From the NCBI GenBank assembly GCA_030630935.1, contig DAOVMD010000026.1, forward strand, positions 1 to 14,326: 14,326 bases of DNA, in the 5' to 3' direction. The notes under the pieces were generated by a model. The model was not told the DNA's origin. It worked only from the letters and a program-made list of their open reading frames with translations, and did not search any database. The translations under genes and the position numbers were made by a program. This document shows positions 2,364-13,780 of the stretch, in pieces. This DNA comes from Candidatus Mcinerneyibacteriota bacterium. Lineage in GTDB: Bacteria > AUK180 > JAQVHJ01. Numbering within the stretch: position 1 is the stretch's first letter; every line of letters begins with the position of its first letter.

Positions 2364-3044
2364 CTATTCCCCAAATAATAATGATAACAAAGATTCAATT
2401 GGCTGGGGTAATTTATTCATACCAGATGGCTCAACAGGAAAATTTTCATCTTTATAATCCTCGTCGTCTTCTATTTCAAATCCATATTTTTGCCAGACTC
2501 CGTATAGTAATCGGTAATCTCCAATTTTAAGATATTCTCGATTTTGCATTAATAGGTTCAATAGAAAATCATCTGATTCTATTGCCGTATCAAGATCATC
2601 TTCATCGTAATCATTGTAATCGTGATAGTCATTATCAAAACCTAATCCTGGATCAAGATGACAGAAAATGGAAACGATTACCCGCTTTCCTTGGGATTCC
2701 ACAGTTACACCCATATCATCAATTCCATCAAATTCGAAATTACTAATTTCTTTAATTATCTTTGCTTTTGTCTCAAAAGCCATTACGAGAGTCCACCAAC
2801 TGTAACTTTCGGAATACATAACATCATAGTAATTCCCCATAAGTGGTTCCCAACCACCTGGAAGGTCATTCCATTCACCATGGTAGATAAAGCTTACTCT
2901 TCGTTTAGTTGGTCTGGCTCTACTTGATAGACTGGCAACCTTTTTCCTTTGAGATTTGTTTAAAGGTTTATCAATAGCTAAAAATTCATAAGAGGTTGAG
3001 CTGTGATCAGCTTGAAATCCTTTACGAATACTAAATATCTTCAT
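2364..3044 (-). CDS. Conserved protein of unknown function, partner of radical SAM enzyme
   Basis: I cannot assign a function. The protein (226 aa from the chosen start) is soluble, with no signal peptide or TM segment. Visible blocks are an N-terminal 'FSIRKGFQADHSSTSYEFLA' (residues 4-23), a basic stretch 'SSRARPTKRR', an aromatic block 'YYDVMYSESYSWW' (72-84), a 'GIDDMGVTVESQGKRVIVSI' strand pair, a Tyr/Asp-rich acidic stretch (137-152) and a second acidic stretch near residue 200. I recall similar 'HSSTSYEFLA' hypothetical proteins from other bacteria, which suggests a real family; this is memory, not a search. Start: ATG at 3044 lies 9 nt after AAGGAG, whereas the in-frame ATG at 3053 abuts that site. 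It overlaps the upstream radical SAM gene by 14 nt, implying translational coupling. It could be the substrate, a substrate-binding partner or a separate enzyme. Confidence 0.82.
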   Translation of the reverse strand: MKIFSIRKGFQADHSSTSYEFLAIDKPLNKSQRKKVASLSSRARPTKRRVSFIYHGEWNDLPGGWEPLMGNYYDVMYSESYSWWTLVMAFETKAKIIKEISNFEFDGIDDMGVTVESQGKRVIVSIFCHLDPGLGFDNDYHDYNDYDEDDLDTAIESDDFLLNLLMQNREYLKIGDYRLLYGVWQKYGFEIEDDEDYKDENFPVEPSGMNKLPQPIESLLSLLFGE

Positions 3045-4695
3045 AATCTCCATCTCCTTCTTTATTTTTGGACTGAAACCAGGAATCTTTTGTCTTTAAT
3101 CTAATCCATTCGGGATAATTTTCCAGATATTCCAGAAACGGATGACACTCAATGCATTCTGGTATTTGTTTATAAGTATCTTTTTTCTTTCTAACAGGTT
3201 TACCAGTCGTACTTAATGTATATGGAGATGCGTTAAGCTCCTTGATGGCTCTTCGTTGACTTACCCCATAGCGATCCATATATTCCTCCACTGAAATTAT
3301 ATTATAGCTCTTCAAATATTCAACTAAATCCAAGCTTCTCCCAATTTTGCCAATCTTGCTTAATTTGGGTAAAACAGGTTGAGGGCAATCGGTATCTCCT
3401 CCTAATCCATCCACAGCAAAAACACGACAGCCGCCGCAGAAATGTCTTGCCTGACAAACACCACACCAGCTATACTTAAATGACTTTTTATTCCGAAAAG
3501 AACGGTATTTACGAAGTATTCGCGACTGTTCCCATAGTACTGTCGGTTCAGATTCTAATAAATTACCGGCATAACAATCCGGATGTACAAGCTGGGAACA
3601 AGGATAGACAGAACCATCTGGCGCCAGTGCAAGAATCCGGTCAGCTGCAACACAGCCTTTAATCCCAAATTGTGCCGATAATTTCCTGGATAAATATCGC
3701 TGAACAAAACTTAATGCACAATCTATTCTAATATTTAATTGAGGATTTTCCTTGATAATTTCATATATTTTTTTATGCAGTTTTTTTGTCTGATAATGGT
3801 CAGGTTTTTCAGATTCCCAACGTTCAATACTTTCAGGTGGTTTGTATCTCAGTAGAATAATTCGGTTAAAACCAACATCAGCAAGAATTTTAATAAGTTT
3901 CTCGAACTGTTTAATCGCGGATTTGGTTAAAAACAGATTTGCACCAGGAGTTATACCCAGTTTTTGAAGGGTAATAAATAAATCTTGAAGCTGGTGAATT
4001 GTTTTTATTAAGTTTGACCCTATAAGATCATCTGGCTGGATACCAAATTGTAGATTTTGGATTGAGCTGCATAATGATTCTAAAAGGTAAGAATCTATCT
4101 TCAGCTTACCTGTGGTGATATTGACAGATAATCCCCGATTAGCAGCATACTGAACAAGCTTTAATAAATCCTTCCTGAGTAACGGTTCACCTCCACCTAT
4201 AGCTAATTGAAATACACCCCAGTCTGCAATTTTATCAATGAGTTTCATGGCATCTGTGGTACCAAGCTCATTTTTAATGAATGAAAAACGACGGGTATAA
4301 CAATCAGGGCAATCTCTATTGCAGCTATAGGTTACAGCCCAATGCACGGTTTCCGGAGCTGAAAGCCATGGTTTTGATGTAATTTTAACCGGTTTTGGAA
4401 TTATTGATTGTGGAAGTGATGACGCTTCATTCTGCTTTTCTATTATCCTCAGCTCGAATAATTTTTGCAAGGTTTTATCTATTGACTTATCTTCCCTTTT
4501 TATAATATTGTTTTGAATTAAAAAGGTGATGGCATCGTTTAGTTTTAGAGCTCTATCCTTTATCAAATTGAGCAGGTGAAAAGCGCTGTTGTCAACTTCC
4601 AGAATATTACCATTACGAGTGTCATAAACTAGACCGCCAAAATATTCTTTACGCAAACGGATACCATAAACAAGACGAATAATAAGATTTTGCAT
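3031..4695 (-). CDS. Radical SAM/SPASM enzyme with N-terminal PqqD-like domain
   Basis: Residues 1-88 resemble a PqqD-type RiPP recognition element ('GGLVYDTRNGNILEVDNSAFHLL'). The radical SAM core follows, with the 4Fe-4S motif C-NRD-C-PD-C (Cys126, 130, 133, counting from the alternative GTG) and 'GGGEP' (168-172) for SAM binding. A SPASM-type region for extra clusters follows: Cys349, Cys367 in 'DGSVYPCSQL', Cys375, then Cys412, 415, 421, 424 and Cys438. SPASM enzymes of this build modify peptides or small proteins, for example thioether, C-C bond or decarboxylation chemistry; which reaction applies here is unknown. A C-terminal extension (about 450-555) has a helix-turn-helix-like 'YMDRYGVSQRRAIKEL' and an extra CIEC pair (515, 518). 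ATG at 4695 sits about 7 nt after GGGA; an adjacent GTG at 4698 is the alternative. It is first in an operon with the 226-aa gene. Confidence 0.9.
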   Translation of the reverse strand: MQNLIIRLVYGIRLRKEYFGGLVYDTRNGNILEVDNSAFHLLNLIKDRALKLNDAITFLIQNNIIKREDKSIDKTLQKLFELRIIEKQNEASSLPQSIIPKPVKITSKPWLSAPETVHWAVTYSCNRDCPDCYTRRFSFIKNELGTTDAMKLIDKIADWGVFQLAIGGGEPLLRKDLLKLVQYAANRGLSVNITTGKLKIDSYLLESLCSSIQNLQFGIQPDDLIGSNLIKTIHQLQDLFITLQKLGITPGANLFLTKSAIKQFEKLIKILADVGFNRIILLRYKPPESIERWESEKPDHYQTKKLHKKIYEIIKENPQLNIRIDCALSFVQRYLSRKLSAQFGIKGCVAADRILALAPDGSVYPCSQLVHPDCYAGNLLESEPTVLWEQSRILRKYRSFRNKKSFKYSWCGVCQARHFCGGCRVFAVDGLGGDTDCPQPVLPKLSKIGKIGRSLDLVEYLKSYNIISVEEYMDRYGVSQRRAIKELNASPYTLSTTGKPVRKKKDTYKQIPECIECHPFLEYLENYPEWIRLKTKDSWFQSKNKEGDGDYEDI

Positions 4696-4731
4696 CACTT
4701 TATCCCAAATCCAAATATAGAATTTATTTCT

Positions 4732-4837: not shown

Positions 4838-4866
4838 ATTATACTCTGAAACCTCATCTTTGTCAA
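4838..4866 (-). promoter_or_regulatory. Consensus sigma70 promoter for the radical SAM operon
   Basis: On the minus strand TTGACA (4866-4861) is followed by exactly 17 nt and TATAAT (4843-4838), a full match to the housekeeping consensus. Transcription would start near 4831, giving a leader of about 135 nt before the radical SAM start. A perfect promoter suggests strong expression unless a regulator blocks it. Confidence 0.85.
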
Positions 4867-10260: not shown

Positions 10261-10698
10261 TTGGACTGGATAAAAGAACTTTCCGCACAATTTGAGAACA
10301 TTGAGTTCTTCCCCCCCGTAAAAGAGAAAGACGTCAGAGCACTCGAGAGAAAATTTGACATTAAATTTCATAAAGAGCTTAGAAGACTGCTGAAATCAAC
10401 AGATGGTTTTTTAGCAAAGTTTGATGCAAATATCTGCTGGAGTATTCTGGAGAATGAAAACAATACCGATATCTATACTGAGAATATGTATATCTGTGAG
10501 AATAATAATGCCCCTGAGGGAGTTGACTTTAAAGAGGTTGTTTTCTTCGGTGATGATGGAGCAGATATTTTTTGGGGTTTCAAATTAGAAGACGGGAAGA
10601 TGACCGATACTATCGTTTCATGGAACAGAATGAAGAATTCTGTCCGCGAATATCAGATGCCTCTAAAAAATTTCTTCAGGATGGTTGCAGAATCTTAG
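10261..10698 (+). CDS. SMI1/KNR4 (SUKH) family protein
   Basis: 145 residues, the usual size of a single SUKH domain. The 'FFPPVKEKDVRALERKFDIKFHKELRRLLKSTDG' opening (16-49) and 'VVFFGDDGADIFWGF' (about 93-107) match the SMI1/KNR4 pattern (helix, 'P.yk.fL...nGg', then 'fgdd..Gd..f.f'). Bacterial SUKH proteins are best known as immunity proteins against polymorphic toxins, but some have other binding roles; no toxin is in this window. The start is TTG at 10261, supported by AGGGAG 6 nt upstream and by a consensus promoter. The next in-frame Met is deep in the domain. Six nt separate its stop from the first RDD gene, so they are co-transcribed. Its terminal codons recur at 12206-12223. Confidence 0.83.
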   Translation: MDWIKELSAQFENIEFFPPVKEKDVRALERKFDIKFHKELRRLLKSTDGFLAKFDANICWSILENENNTDIYTENMYICENNNAPEGVDFKEVVFFGDDGADIFWGFKLEDGKMTDTIVSWNRMKNSVREYQMPLKNFFRMVAES

Positions 10699-10704
10699 GA
10701 TAAA

Positions 10705-12180
10705 ATGAAAGATTTGGACCAACAATTTAATCAAAAATTAAATCAAATTACCCTCATTTTAGCTGTAAGTTTAATTATAGTTACCGTTTTGGTTTTTGTA
10801 ATTATTAATACTACATCAAATTGTATTTACCCCAAATTAAATACAAGCTGTGATTATAATAAAGAACTTTATTTTATAGGAGAAATCAGGTATCGTTATC
10901 CTTTTAGAGTGTTGAATAAGTTGATTTTAAAAAAGAAATTATGCTTATGTAGATTTAACCCCGGAGAAAAAACGCACGAGGTTATTTTTAAATTTCGGTG
11001 TAATCCTGAATATATAAATATAATTTCTAATTCAGAAGAGATCTTTATCTTGACCGAGAAAAACCTATATCGGTATAATGGCAAAGTTGTATGTCAGGAT
11101 CCATTTAGTGGATATAAAATTGATTCAAAGTTATTTATTGTTAACGATAACCCGTCATTTTTAACTTTTACAAATTATGACTTTGAGATATATTCATTGA
11201 TAGGACAAGAATGGAAAAGAAATACTGAAGTCGAAGAGCAGCTTAACTTAAAATATAGTGAGTTAAGAATAGCAAGTTTACAAAAAATTGAAAGAAATTC
11301 TTTGTACCTTTTTTATATCCATGATCAAATATTAATTGCGGATAAAGTTTATAAAAAATATAATTTAACATCCAAACGTTTATTCCAATATCGTCAATTG
11401 AGAAATGAAGTAGTCCTTTTTAAAGCAGGTTATTTAATAGATTTTGGTTATCACAGGATCTCCGGTAGAACAATATATCCAACAGAAGAGAAACATGATA
11501 TCTTTTTTGATAGAAAAACAGAACATATGTTTGGTAAAGATGTAACAATCTACGAATTTGGAGTCTACAATTGTAATGGTCCACGTAATTTTGATCTGCT
11601 AATGTTTAGTACCGGGAATTATTGCTTCCTTGAATTTAGAAATGGAAAAGTAAAAGAATATGGAATTTTTATGGATGATTATTTTTTTAAATCAATTTTA
11701 ACTTTTGATATTATTCGATATTCATATGTTTTTTTATTAGTTAGCATTTTATTCTTTTATCAATTCTTCTTCAATGCAAATAAGATTTCAATCGCAAAAA
11801 TATATTGGGAAACGGGACACTTTGCGTCTCTTTCTAAAAGATTACTTGCCCGAGTGCTTGATTTTATTTTAATGTTTATCATAATTATGTGGAAATTAGA
11901 ATTGAATTATATTTTTGTGATTCTGTTTATCCTGCTATTTTTTGAAGGATTTACTGGATATACTCCAGGGAAATTTCTTTTAGGAATAAAGGTGGTTAAT
12001 AGATTTTATGAACCCATAGGATTTTTAAAAGCTTTGGTAAGGAATTTCATGCTTCCTTTCGATTTAATCCCGTATTTTTTAATATTTGATTGCTTCTTGA
12101 TAGGGAAATCAGATAAGTGGCAGAGATTAGGTGATGTGATAACCGGATCAATAGTTGTAGAAAAATTTAAGGAGATATAA
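10705..12180 (+). CDS. RDD-domain membrane protein with large extracytoplasmic domain (paralogue 1)
   Basis: 491 residues: one TM near 15-36, an extracytoplasmic domain of about 300 residues, a second TM (about 341-357) and a C-terminal RDD domain. RDD landmarks are 'LSKRLLARVLDFI' (R379/R383, D386), 'EGFTGYTPGKFLLGIKVV' (414-431) and 'RLGDVITGSIVV' (474-485), with further TM helices around 385-413 and 449-467. The extracytoplasmic part is rich in short strands ('EEIFILTEKNLYRYNGK', 'NDNPSFLTFTNYDFEIYSL'), which could form a beta-propeller-like sensor; this is inference. RDD domains are of mostly unknown function, with transport roles reported for some. It starts 6 nt after the SUKH stop, the TTAGGA around that stop serving as ribosome site, and is followed 55 nt later by its paralogue. 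Confidence 0.82.
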   Translation: MKDLDQQFNQKLNQITLILAVSLIIVTVLVFVIINTTSNCIYPKLNTSCDYNKELYFIGEIRYRYPFRVLNKLILKKKLCLCRFNPGEKTHEVIFKFRCNPEYINIISNSEEIFILTEKNLYRYNGKVVCQDPFSGYKIDSKLFIVNDNPSFLTFTNYDFEIYSLIGQEWKRNTEVEEQLNLKYSELRIASLQKIERNSLYLFYIHDQILIADKVYKKYNLTSKRLFQYRQLRNEVVLFKAGYLIDFGYHRISGRTIYPTEEKHDIFFDRKTEHMFGKDVTIYEFGVYNCNGPRNFDLLMFSTGNYCFLEFRNGKVKEYGIFMDDYFFKSILTFDIIRYSYVFLLVSILFFYQFFFNANKISIAKIYWETGHFASLSKRLLARVLDFILMFIIIMWKLELNYIFVILFILLFFEGFTGYTPGKFLLGIKVVNRFYEPIGFLKALVRNFMLPFDLIPYFLIFDCFLIGKSDKWQRLGDVITGSIVVEKFKEI

Positions 12181-12205
12181 ACGATTAATAAGATTAAAAT
12201 TAAAA

Positions 12206-12225
12206 ATGATTGCAGAGTCTTAGGA
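12206..12225 (+). repeat. Remnant copy of the SUKH gene 3' end
   Basis: ATG-ATT-GCA-GAG-TCT-TAG (12206-12223) matches the last codons of the SUKH gene, ATG-GTT-GCA-GAA-TCT-TAG (10681-10698), at 16 of 18 positions; two more bases (GA) follow in both. Both copies sit directly upstream of an RDD gene. Upstream of 12206 the similarity stops. Confidence 0.55.
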
Positions 12226-12227
12226 GG
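12222..12227 (+). promoter_or_regulatory. Strong Shine-Dalgarno site AGGAGG for the second RDD gene
   Basis: AGGAGG lies 8 nt before ATG 12236 and shares bases with the stop of the SUKH remnant. It fixes the start. No separate promoter is seen between the two RDD genes. Confidence 0.7.
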
Positions 12228-12235
12228 ATGTCATA

Positions 12236-13780
12236 ATGGATGATAAGGAAAAGTTAAAAAAGTCATTGAAATTTGCTTTGATTTCATTTTTAATAATTGT
12301 ATCTATTTTATTTCTTGTCTCAATGTTTTCTCCAATTTACTTACTAACCATGAGATTAGATTCAGTGCTAAATGAATCCTTTGTTTTTGAAGGGAAATAC
12401 TATATTTTATATCAACGTACAAAAGATTTTGATAATTTCAAGGCTCCACAGTTTAAAATATCGAAACAAATTCAAAAAAAATACTTACCCAATTTATTTA
12501 TTTATAAATTTGAAGATAATAATTTAACAATACTCGAAAGATTTAGTCTTGATAATCCTGTTTATACTCTTTGTACTGAAAATCTTGTTTATTTAATTTC
12601 AAGGGATAAAATAATTCTATTCGATGGAAAGCAGTTTGAATACAATGAAAATAAATTACCCGAATTGTATTCGGAGTTGTTTTTATATGAAGACCACCCC
12701 GCATATATTATATATGAAAATAAAAACTTCAAGGTTTTTATTCTGAAGGATAAGGAATGGGTTTTAAAGAAAAATGTTACCTTTTTAAATAGTGAAAAAT
12801 ATTTATGTGAAGATGATAGATATATAAAGAAGAGACTTATTCCGGGAATGCAAATCCTTGTTAATAAAAATAATGAAATATTTATTAGCTATTATCCTTT
12901 GGATGAAAAGGATTATTACGTTAAAAATACTCATGTATTATTACACAAAGATAAAATTATTTTATTTTCTATGAAAAGAGACAAGAGAGGTCTTTTAAAA
13001 AGAAAATTAACAATCAGTGAATTAAAAAATGATTCAAACATAACTTTAATTAAAGAGATTATAATCTCTCAATTTGAAGATATTCGATTATGGGATTTTA
13101 AAGTTTTTAATTATAATGATCCTGCAAATTTTGAAATATGTTTTTGTTCAAAATCCGGAAATTTGAAATTGTTGACATATTCAAATGGTCAATTTATTAA
13201 ACTAAATAAATCCGATTTTAAGTATAATGAGGTTCAAAAAATATTATTAATATTAGGTGCTACGTCATTTTATTGGATTCATTTTTTTATTTTAATTATT
13301 TTTCATATAATTATTGCAAAATACAAACCTAAAATTGTAGAATTAAATGGAAATGAATATAAAGTTCCGGGTTTATTGAAAAGAGCTTTATCGAAATATG
13401 TAGATATAATTATATGTTTTGTTTTCTTAATAGGGTTTGGCTTTTTGTGGAGTCTTATTCAACAGATATCGATTGATCTTGAATGGTTATCAGTTTTATT
13501 TGGTTTTATCGGATTATTTTCAGGACCTTTGTTTATTGTTTTCCTTGAAGGCTTAACTGGTCGCTCTCCGGGAAAATTATTATTTGGCTTGAGGGTTGTC
13601 GATATAAATCTTAAGAAACCCGGATTCAATAGAGCTTTAATCAGAAATGTTTCATTTTGTGTTGATGTTTTCCTCTGGCTTTTTGTTATAGATTGTTATA
13701 GAATTGGTATGACAGATGATTGGCTCAGACTTGGCGATAATGTTGCAAGAACGATTGTGATTGAAAATAAAATAGATTAA
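12236..13780 (+). CDS. RDD-domain membrane protein with large extracytoplasmic domain (paralogue 2)
   Basis: 514 residues with the same plan as the preceding gene: TM1 (about 11-31), extracytoplasmic domain (about 34-335), TM2 (about 336-359), RDD domain (about 379-510). RDD landmarks: 'GLLKRALSKYVDIII' (R383, D390), 'EGLTGRSPGKLLFGLRVV' (439-456) and 'RLGDNVARTIVIEN' (498-511). The extracytoplasmic parts align loosely: 'IILFDGKQFEYNEN...LYEDHPAYIIYENKNFKVFIL' against 'LYRYNGKVVCQDPF...VNDNPSFLTFTNYDFEIYSL'. The proteins are thus diverged tandem duplicates; the RDD halves are more alike than the outer domains. Its start is fixed by AGGAGG 8 nt upstream. It is the last gene of the SUKH-RDD-RDD operon; an inverted repeat at 13858-13908 may end the transcript. 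Function unknown; the layout suggests an envelope sensor or transporter. Confidence 0.82.
   Translation: MDDKEKLKKSLKFALISFLIIVSILFLVSMFSPIYLLTMRLDSVLNESFVFEGKYYILYQRTKDFDNFKAPQFKISKQIQKKYLPNLFIYKFEDNNLTILERFSLDNPVYTLCTENLVYLISRDKIILFDGKQFEYNENKLPELYSELFLYEDHPAYIIYENKNFKVFILKDKEWVLKKNVTFLNSEKYLCEDDRYIKKRLIPGMQILVNKNNEIFISYYPLDEKDYYVKNTHVLLHKDKIILFSMKRDKRGLLKRKLTISELKNDSNITLIKEIIISQFEDIRLWDFKVFNYNDPANFEICFCSKSGNLKLLTYSNGQFIKLNKSDFKYNEVQKILLILGATSFYWIHFFILIIFHIIIAKYKPKIVELNGNEYKVPGLLKRALSKYVDIIICFVFLIGFGFLWSLIQQISIDLEWLSVLFGFIGLFSGPLFIVFLEGLTGRSPGKLLFGLRVVDINLKKPGFNRALIRNVSFCVDVFLWLFVIDCYRIGMTDDWLRLGDNVARTIVIENKID

Follow-up and report, generated by a model that had tools for sequence, protein, structure and literature searches.

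Most discussion of RRE-containing SPASM enzymes treats them as producers of short modified peptides, and the locus studied here raises the question of what such an enzyme does when the gene overlapping its own encodes a protein of more than two hundred residues that belongs to no named family. The window, by which we mean the whole 14,326-nt stretch of DNA analysed, comes from a draft genome of 3.16 Mb in 471 contigs that is about 80% complete. Both open reading frames lie on the minus strand where the preliminary description had placed them (Table 1), and the other features it reported there are equally sound: the 14-nt overlap (partner ATG at 3044 against enzyme stop at 3031), the perfect sigma70 promoter, the only one in the window, and the CxxxCxxC, GGGEP and Cys-rich SPASM elements of the enzyme (Pfam Radical_SAM 1.8e-10, SPASM 2.3e-6). 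The ORF listing picks an adjoining GTG at 4698 for the enzyme, whose start we have taken as the ATG at 4695. For the partner, ATG 3044 is backed by the homologues, which begin MKIxS and give no support to an alternative start at 3053 (229 aa). The partner had been thought conserved from its looks, and both genes are indeed under purifying selection, with dN/dS of about 0.1-0.2.

Table 1. Features of the two-gene locus in window coordinates
Feature	Position	Strand	Remarks
sigma70-type promoter, TTGACA-17-TATAAT	4838..4866	-	12/12 match; 1 in window, 0.03 expected by chance
RRE-radical SAM-SPASM enzyme	3031..4695	-	554 aa from ATG 4695 (555 from GTG 4698)
N-terminal RRE (PqqD-like) domain, residues about 6-90	4429..4683	-	predicted from fold and profile alignment to SuiB
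Radical SAM cluster motif CxxxCxxC (C126, C130, C133)	4300..4323	-	invariant in 31/31 sequences
GGGEP SAM-binding motif (168-172)	4183..4197	-	GGGE invariant, P at least 90%
SPASM region, eight invariant Cys (C327, C349, C367, C412, C415, C421, C424, C438)	3385..3720	-	
C-terminal winged-helix-like domain (residues 450-496)	3211..3351	-	weak HTH_PafC / HTH_DeoR matches; AlphaFold2
Overlap of enzyme gene and partner gene	3031..3044	-	14 nt
Partner protein, 226 aa	2364..3044	-	ATG 3044, stop 2364; no Pfam or NCBIfam family
Partner N-terminal tail, residues 1-14 (MKIFSIRKGFQADH)	3003..3044	-	AlphaFold2 low-confidence, conserved, not in solo relatives
Tail motif DHSSTSYEF (residues 13-21)	2982..3008	-	only in partner genes, 14 whole genomes

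The rest of the window holds, at 2-2071, a protein of secreted type that carries FG-GAP repeats, four repeats of the carboxypeptidase-regulatory-like kind and a C-terminal domain for type IX secretion; at 10261-13780 come a SUKH (SMI1/KNR4) protein and, after it, two RDD membrane proteins that are paralogues of about 500 aa. No RNA families were found in it.

Architecture of the enzyme

The enzyme is a member of the radical SAM superfamily and a SPASM-domain enzyme, and PF04055 (Radical_SAM) and PF13186 (SPASM) are matched in 31 of 31 aligned homologues. Its AlphaFold2 model is confident (pLDDT 88) and has as its nearest solved structure the streptide synthase SuiB (Z 26.4 over 400 residues, model 6-440 on SuiB 1-439), with anSME (Z 24.5), SkfB, ChlB, PqqE and CteB following. 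Since the alignment to SuiB begins at residue 6, it covers the N-terminal domain, modelled as three strands followed by three helices (b-b-b-a-a-a); a profile alignment likewise brings the two N-termini together, with R-x-E-x-F-G-G shared, and the SPASM-region cysteines match those of SuiB as far as it extends. The Pfam PqqD model matches the N-terminus neither of the window enzyme nor of the family, and the PqqD-like domain proposed in the preliminary description therefore stands by fold and profile alignment and falls by Pfam; on the structural model, we assign the N-terminus to the RRE (PqqD-like) fold. Residues 450-555 (window 3351-3031) form a winged-helix-like domain and an IGYTSGGxPF/YPEW-type end, both present only in part of the family.

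Among NCBIfam models, the top match is MftC (1.1e-29), with NirJ2, AhbD and PqqE among the others, all far below cut-off. As these are cofactor enzymes, and as some family members carry the winged-helix-like domain, one could imagine a pair that produces or detects a small molecule, with a vestigial RRE and with the partner as a catalytic or regulatory subunit. We regard this as very improbable: the RRE does not look vestigial, because its core R-x-E-x-[FW]-G-G is nearly invariant in the 31 sequences, and the partner's tail, conserved yet flexible as set out below, would be left unexplained.

Linkage and neighbourhood of the two genes

A two-sequence profile run against 84,980 species genomes gave 40 partner loci, spread over Bacillota, Aminicenantes, Elusimicrobia, Aerophobetes, Omnitrophota, KSB1, Lentisphaerae, Bacteroidota, Poribacteria, Armatimonadota, Actinomycetota and others. 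At 36 of the 40, the gene immediately upstream, on the partner's strand and often overlapping it, belongs to the enzyme family. Four loci deviate. At L081, the partner is truncated close to a contig edge and a transposase-like ORF lies upstream; L082 and L084 are paralogues from a single termite-gut genome, the only enzyme of which is elsewhere; and L086, in the Deltaproteobacteria bin79 chromosome (G399), is a 44-aa remnant, about the first 44 residues, in a genome where no enzyme was matched. Among 299 genomes drawn evenly from the phylum of one carrier, partner and enzyme are each found in the identical five (hypergeometric p=5e-11), and in a broader set of 386 genomes, the linked partner type occurs only in the window genome and one other. 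In the one case with the genes on two contigs, G479, the contig ends have 21 nt in common, and the genes are therefore adjacent there as well. The distances of the two genes are correlated (r=0.80), as expected of any co-inherited pair, and phage and viral contigs contained no partner homologue. The adjacency and co-occurrence that the preliminary description had proposed to look for are thus both found, and together with the single clade formed by the linked partners (see below), they lend strong support to its idea of a conserved two-gene system.

A termite-gut Clostridiales genome (G398; L136, L123-L126) has one enzyme and, at different places, four partner paralogues, three of them tailed and one without the tail, which suggests that a single enzyme serves several partners there.

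The minimal unit is two genes. Across the linked loci, no third gene is common to more than a few, a conserved short ORF or precursor peptide is lacking within 2.5 kb, and neither an exporter nor a protease recurs beside the pair; what had been remarked of the window, that no exporter or protease lies next door, thus holds family-wide, and both marks of a RiPP cluster, a nearby short precursor and a linked protease or exporter, are missing. As candidates for a conserved third gene, we considered SEC-C, CxxCxxCC, UPF0158, PRiA4_ORF3 and DUF6880, which recur only in a scattered manner. The first four of these lie near the pair at L050, L054, L057, L059, L060, L064, L083 and L085, that is, in several unrelated genomes and not universally. 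A role in defence was likewise discarded: PADLOC gave no match for the partner and, for the enzyme, only the generic viperin radical SAM core of about 100 residues. Nor do we equate the enzyme with the peptide-effector radical SAM genes of vWA-MoxR/FtsH conflict systems, because neither vWA-MoxR nor FtsH genes are common to the linked loci and the enzyme of those systems is described as related to the enzymes of the Memo-Ammecr1 system (PMC7159879).

The partner, its tail and its solo relatives

Neither the single partner sequence nor the family of 36 matches any Pfam or NCBIfam family, and a sequence search of the PDB returned nothing credible. In the AlphaFold2 model (pLDDT 84 overall), a compact alpha/beta domain follows residues 1-14, which have a pLDDT below 50. 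Among the best matches listed, Foldseek comparisons gave a TM no higher than 0.22 by query length, and VIA-align placed ARPC2 at the top (Z 5.3), followed by biotin ligases and by type III secretion chaperones (Z 3.0-3.9); a Z of about 5 may reflect no more than a common arrangement, and we have drawn no function from these matches.

The most conserved stretch of the partner is the tail with the strand that follows it, of consensus MKIxSxRKGFxxDHSSTSYEF. Mean identity is 0.76 for residues 1-12, 0.65 for residues 61-130 and 0.47 for residues 131-226; for residues 13-20 it is 1.0, a value that is biased and partly reflects selection of the sequences because DHSSTSYE was one of our two scan patterns, while residues 1-12 are unaffected by this. 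Profile searches bring in the variants DHSSTSYQF and DRSSSSYEF and one tail-less paralogue. In 14 whole genomes, D[HR]SS[ST]SYEF occurs in partner genes only, the reversed control pattern occurring 0 times. The synonymous positions of the tail vary freely, which places the selection at the protein level. Judged by the model, the tail is apparently flexible, though its low confidence may mean that it docks elsewhere and nothing more.

Distant relatives of the partner, which we call solo, are found in eleven plasmid records and several genomes; they are mostly 270-390 aa long, start MSEYQYYEF, lack the tail and have no radical SAM neighbour that we could see. A tree of 52 sequences groups the linked partners in one clade, supported at 100/100, apart from the 16 solo relatives. 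Given this single linked clade and the tail-less solo relatives, the tail and the enzyme mark one derived lineage of an otherwise solo domain, and since the solo relatives exist without an enzyme, the fold itself functions without one. This MSEYQYYEF...DRPL family, of about 370 aa and made up of plasmid and chromosomal hypotheticals, shares with the partner a homologous domain at about 30% identity but has no N-terminal tail, carries an additional C-terminal part in most members and forms a separate clade. Loci L002-L011 and L032-L042 represent it on plasmids and chromosomes of cyanobacteria, actinobacteria, rhizobia and others, and no Pfam model covers it.

These comparisons bear on where in the partner an enzyme might act. 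The invariant residues of the folded domain include Y54, Y81 and D74, and C128 is nearly conserved (91%), no Cys being invariant in the 36 partners. Such aromatic and acidic residues, or C128, could be the site at which a protein-derived cofactor is made, the tail serving as a recognition handle, and a precedent exists in QhpD, a radical SAM enzyme whose target for crosslinking is a protein subunit (PMC8172795). Some of the domain residues, Y54, D74 and W83 in partner numbering, are nevertheless common to the enzyme-less solo family, and C128 is not invariant; we consider modification of the domain decidedly unlikely. Somewhat less so, but still on the unlikely side, is the idea that the partner is no substrate at all and is instead a subunit or peptide-presenting chaperone, docked through its tail, that brings a third, unlinked protein or peptide to the enzyme. 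The conserved tail could well serve as a docking peptide for the RRE, the weak likeness to ARPC2 and type III secretion chaperones would fit, and PqqD is a precedent for a separate chaperone protein (PMC8326336). The enzyme already has an RRE of its own, however, the pair has neither a third gene nor a short ORF conserved beside it, and the fold likeness is of the kind that a mere common arrangement may produce.

That the partner is the substrate, and not a carrier or a cooperating enzyme, is the reading that we infer from the conserved tail, from the enzyme's RRE and from the genome in which several partners go with one enzyme. A tail confined to the enzyme-linked lineage, bearing a unique motif and conserved though apparently flexible, would find its simplest account in such a role, as would the paralogues of G398.

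A possible reaction and its place among known systems

We propose that enzyme and partner are a dedicated enzyme-substrate pair, in which the enzyme captures the tail of the partner and modifies it oxidatively, with an intracellular product; we would put about even trust in this proposal as a whole. The N-terminal RRE and the cleft of the SPASM enzyme would together capture the flexible tail, and the 5'-deoxyadenosyl radical would take a hydrogen from within the invariant DHSSTSY or from beside it, at the junction of tail and folded domain. Auxiliary clusters would then accept the electrons, making the change an oxidative one. In SuiB, PqqE and anSME, the auxiliary clusters are fully protein-ligated and are proposed to be electron sinks, unlike those of sacti- and ranthisynthases (PMC8326336); if the clusters of the window enzyme are ligated in the same way, they would point to oxidative chemistry without direct binding of a Cys. 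The likeliest product would be a C-C or C-O crosslink or a dehydrogenation; a Cys thioether is unlikely because the partner has no invariant Cys. The modified partner would probably remain in the cell, given that neither a protease nor an exporter is conserved. One observation counts against capture of the tail by the RRE: in SuiB, the leader occupies the active site and not the RRE (PMC8326336).

Among known systems, SuiB comes closest in build. It has the identical three-domain order of RRE, radical SAM and SPASM, is the best match among solved structures and shares the auxiliary-cluster cysteines in the aligned region; its substrate, on the other hand, is the short precursor SuiA, whereas the conserved partner here is a folded protein with no exporter or protease, and the window enzyme has the additional C-terminal winged-helix-like and IGYTSGG...YPEW region. 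The second structure match, anSME, is a SPASM enzyme acting on a protein residue, but it has no RRE, and the present partner is not a sulfatase: C/S-x-[AP]-x-R is not a conserved motif of the partner alignment, and sulfatase families gave no match. QhpD is devoted to a protein subunit from the same operon, QhpC, the gamma subunit of quinohemoprotein amine dehydrogenase (PMC8172795); QhpC, however, has Cys-to-Asp/Glu thioethers, and our pair has neither the invariant Cys nor an amine dehydrogenase operon. With MftC and PqqE the enzyme shares a related SPASM core, but it reaches only 103.6 bits against the MftC cut-off of 265, and no conserved short precursor gene is linked. Sactipeptide and ranthipeptide maturases, finally, require a Cys-containing substrate for thioether formation, and the 36 partners have no invariant Cys. 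By these tests, the pair is not a mycofactocin, anSME, QhpD or sactipeptide system; it is of SuiB type in architecture and similar to anSME and QhpD in having a protein as its probable target. The best reading would then be a protein-directed modification system rather than a secreted RiPP.

The family libraries and the literature that we searched contain no description of the pair, an absence that is not proof of novelty. Tentatively, and with the doubts outweighing the confidence, we suggest a new class of protein-directed radical SAM modification in which an RRE-SPASM enzyme acts on the DHSSTSY tail of a folded intracellular protein dedicated to it and leaves there a crosslink or an oxidised residue, the two-gene cassette being scattered across bacterial phyla. 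As the partner is without any family model, tens of genomes hold a system that has no name. Cultured carriers include Paradesulfitobacterium ferrireducens, Fuchsiella alkaliacetigena and Natroniella, and the target for testing is a sharp one, about 20 residues and one enzyme. If the proposal is true, it would widen RRE-SPASM chemistry to the maturation of intracellular proteins.
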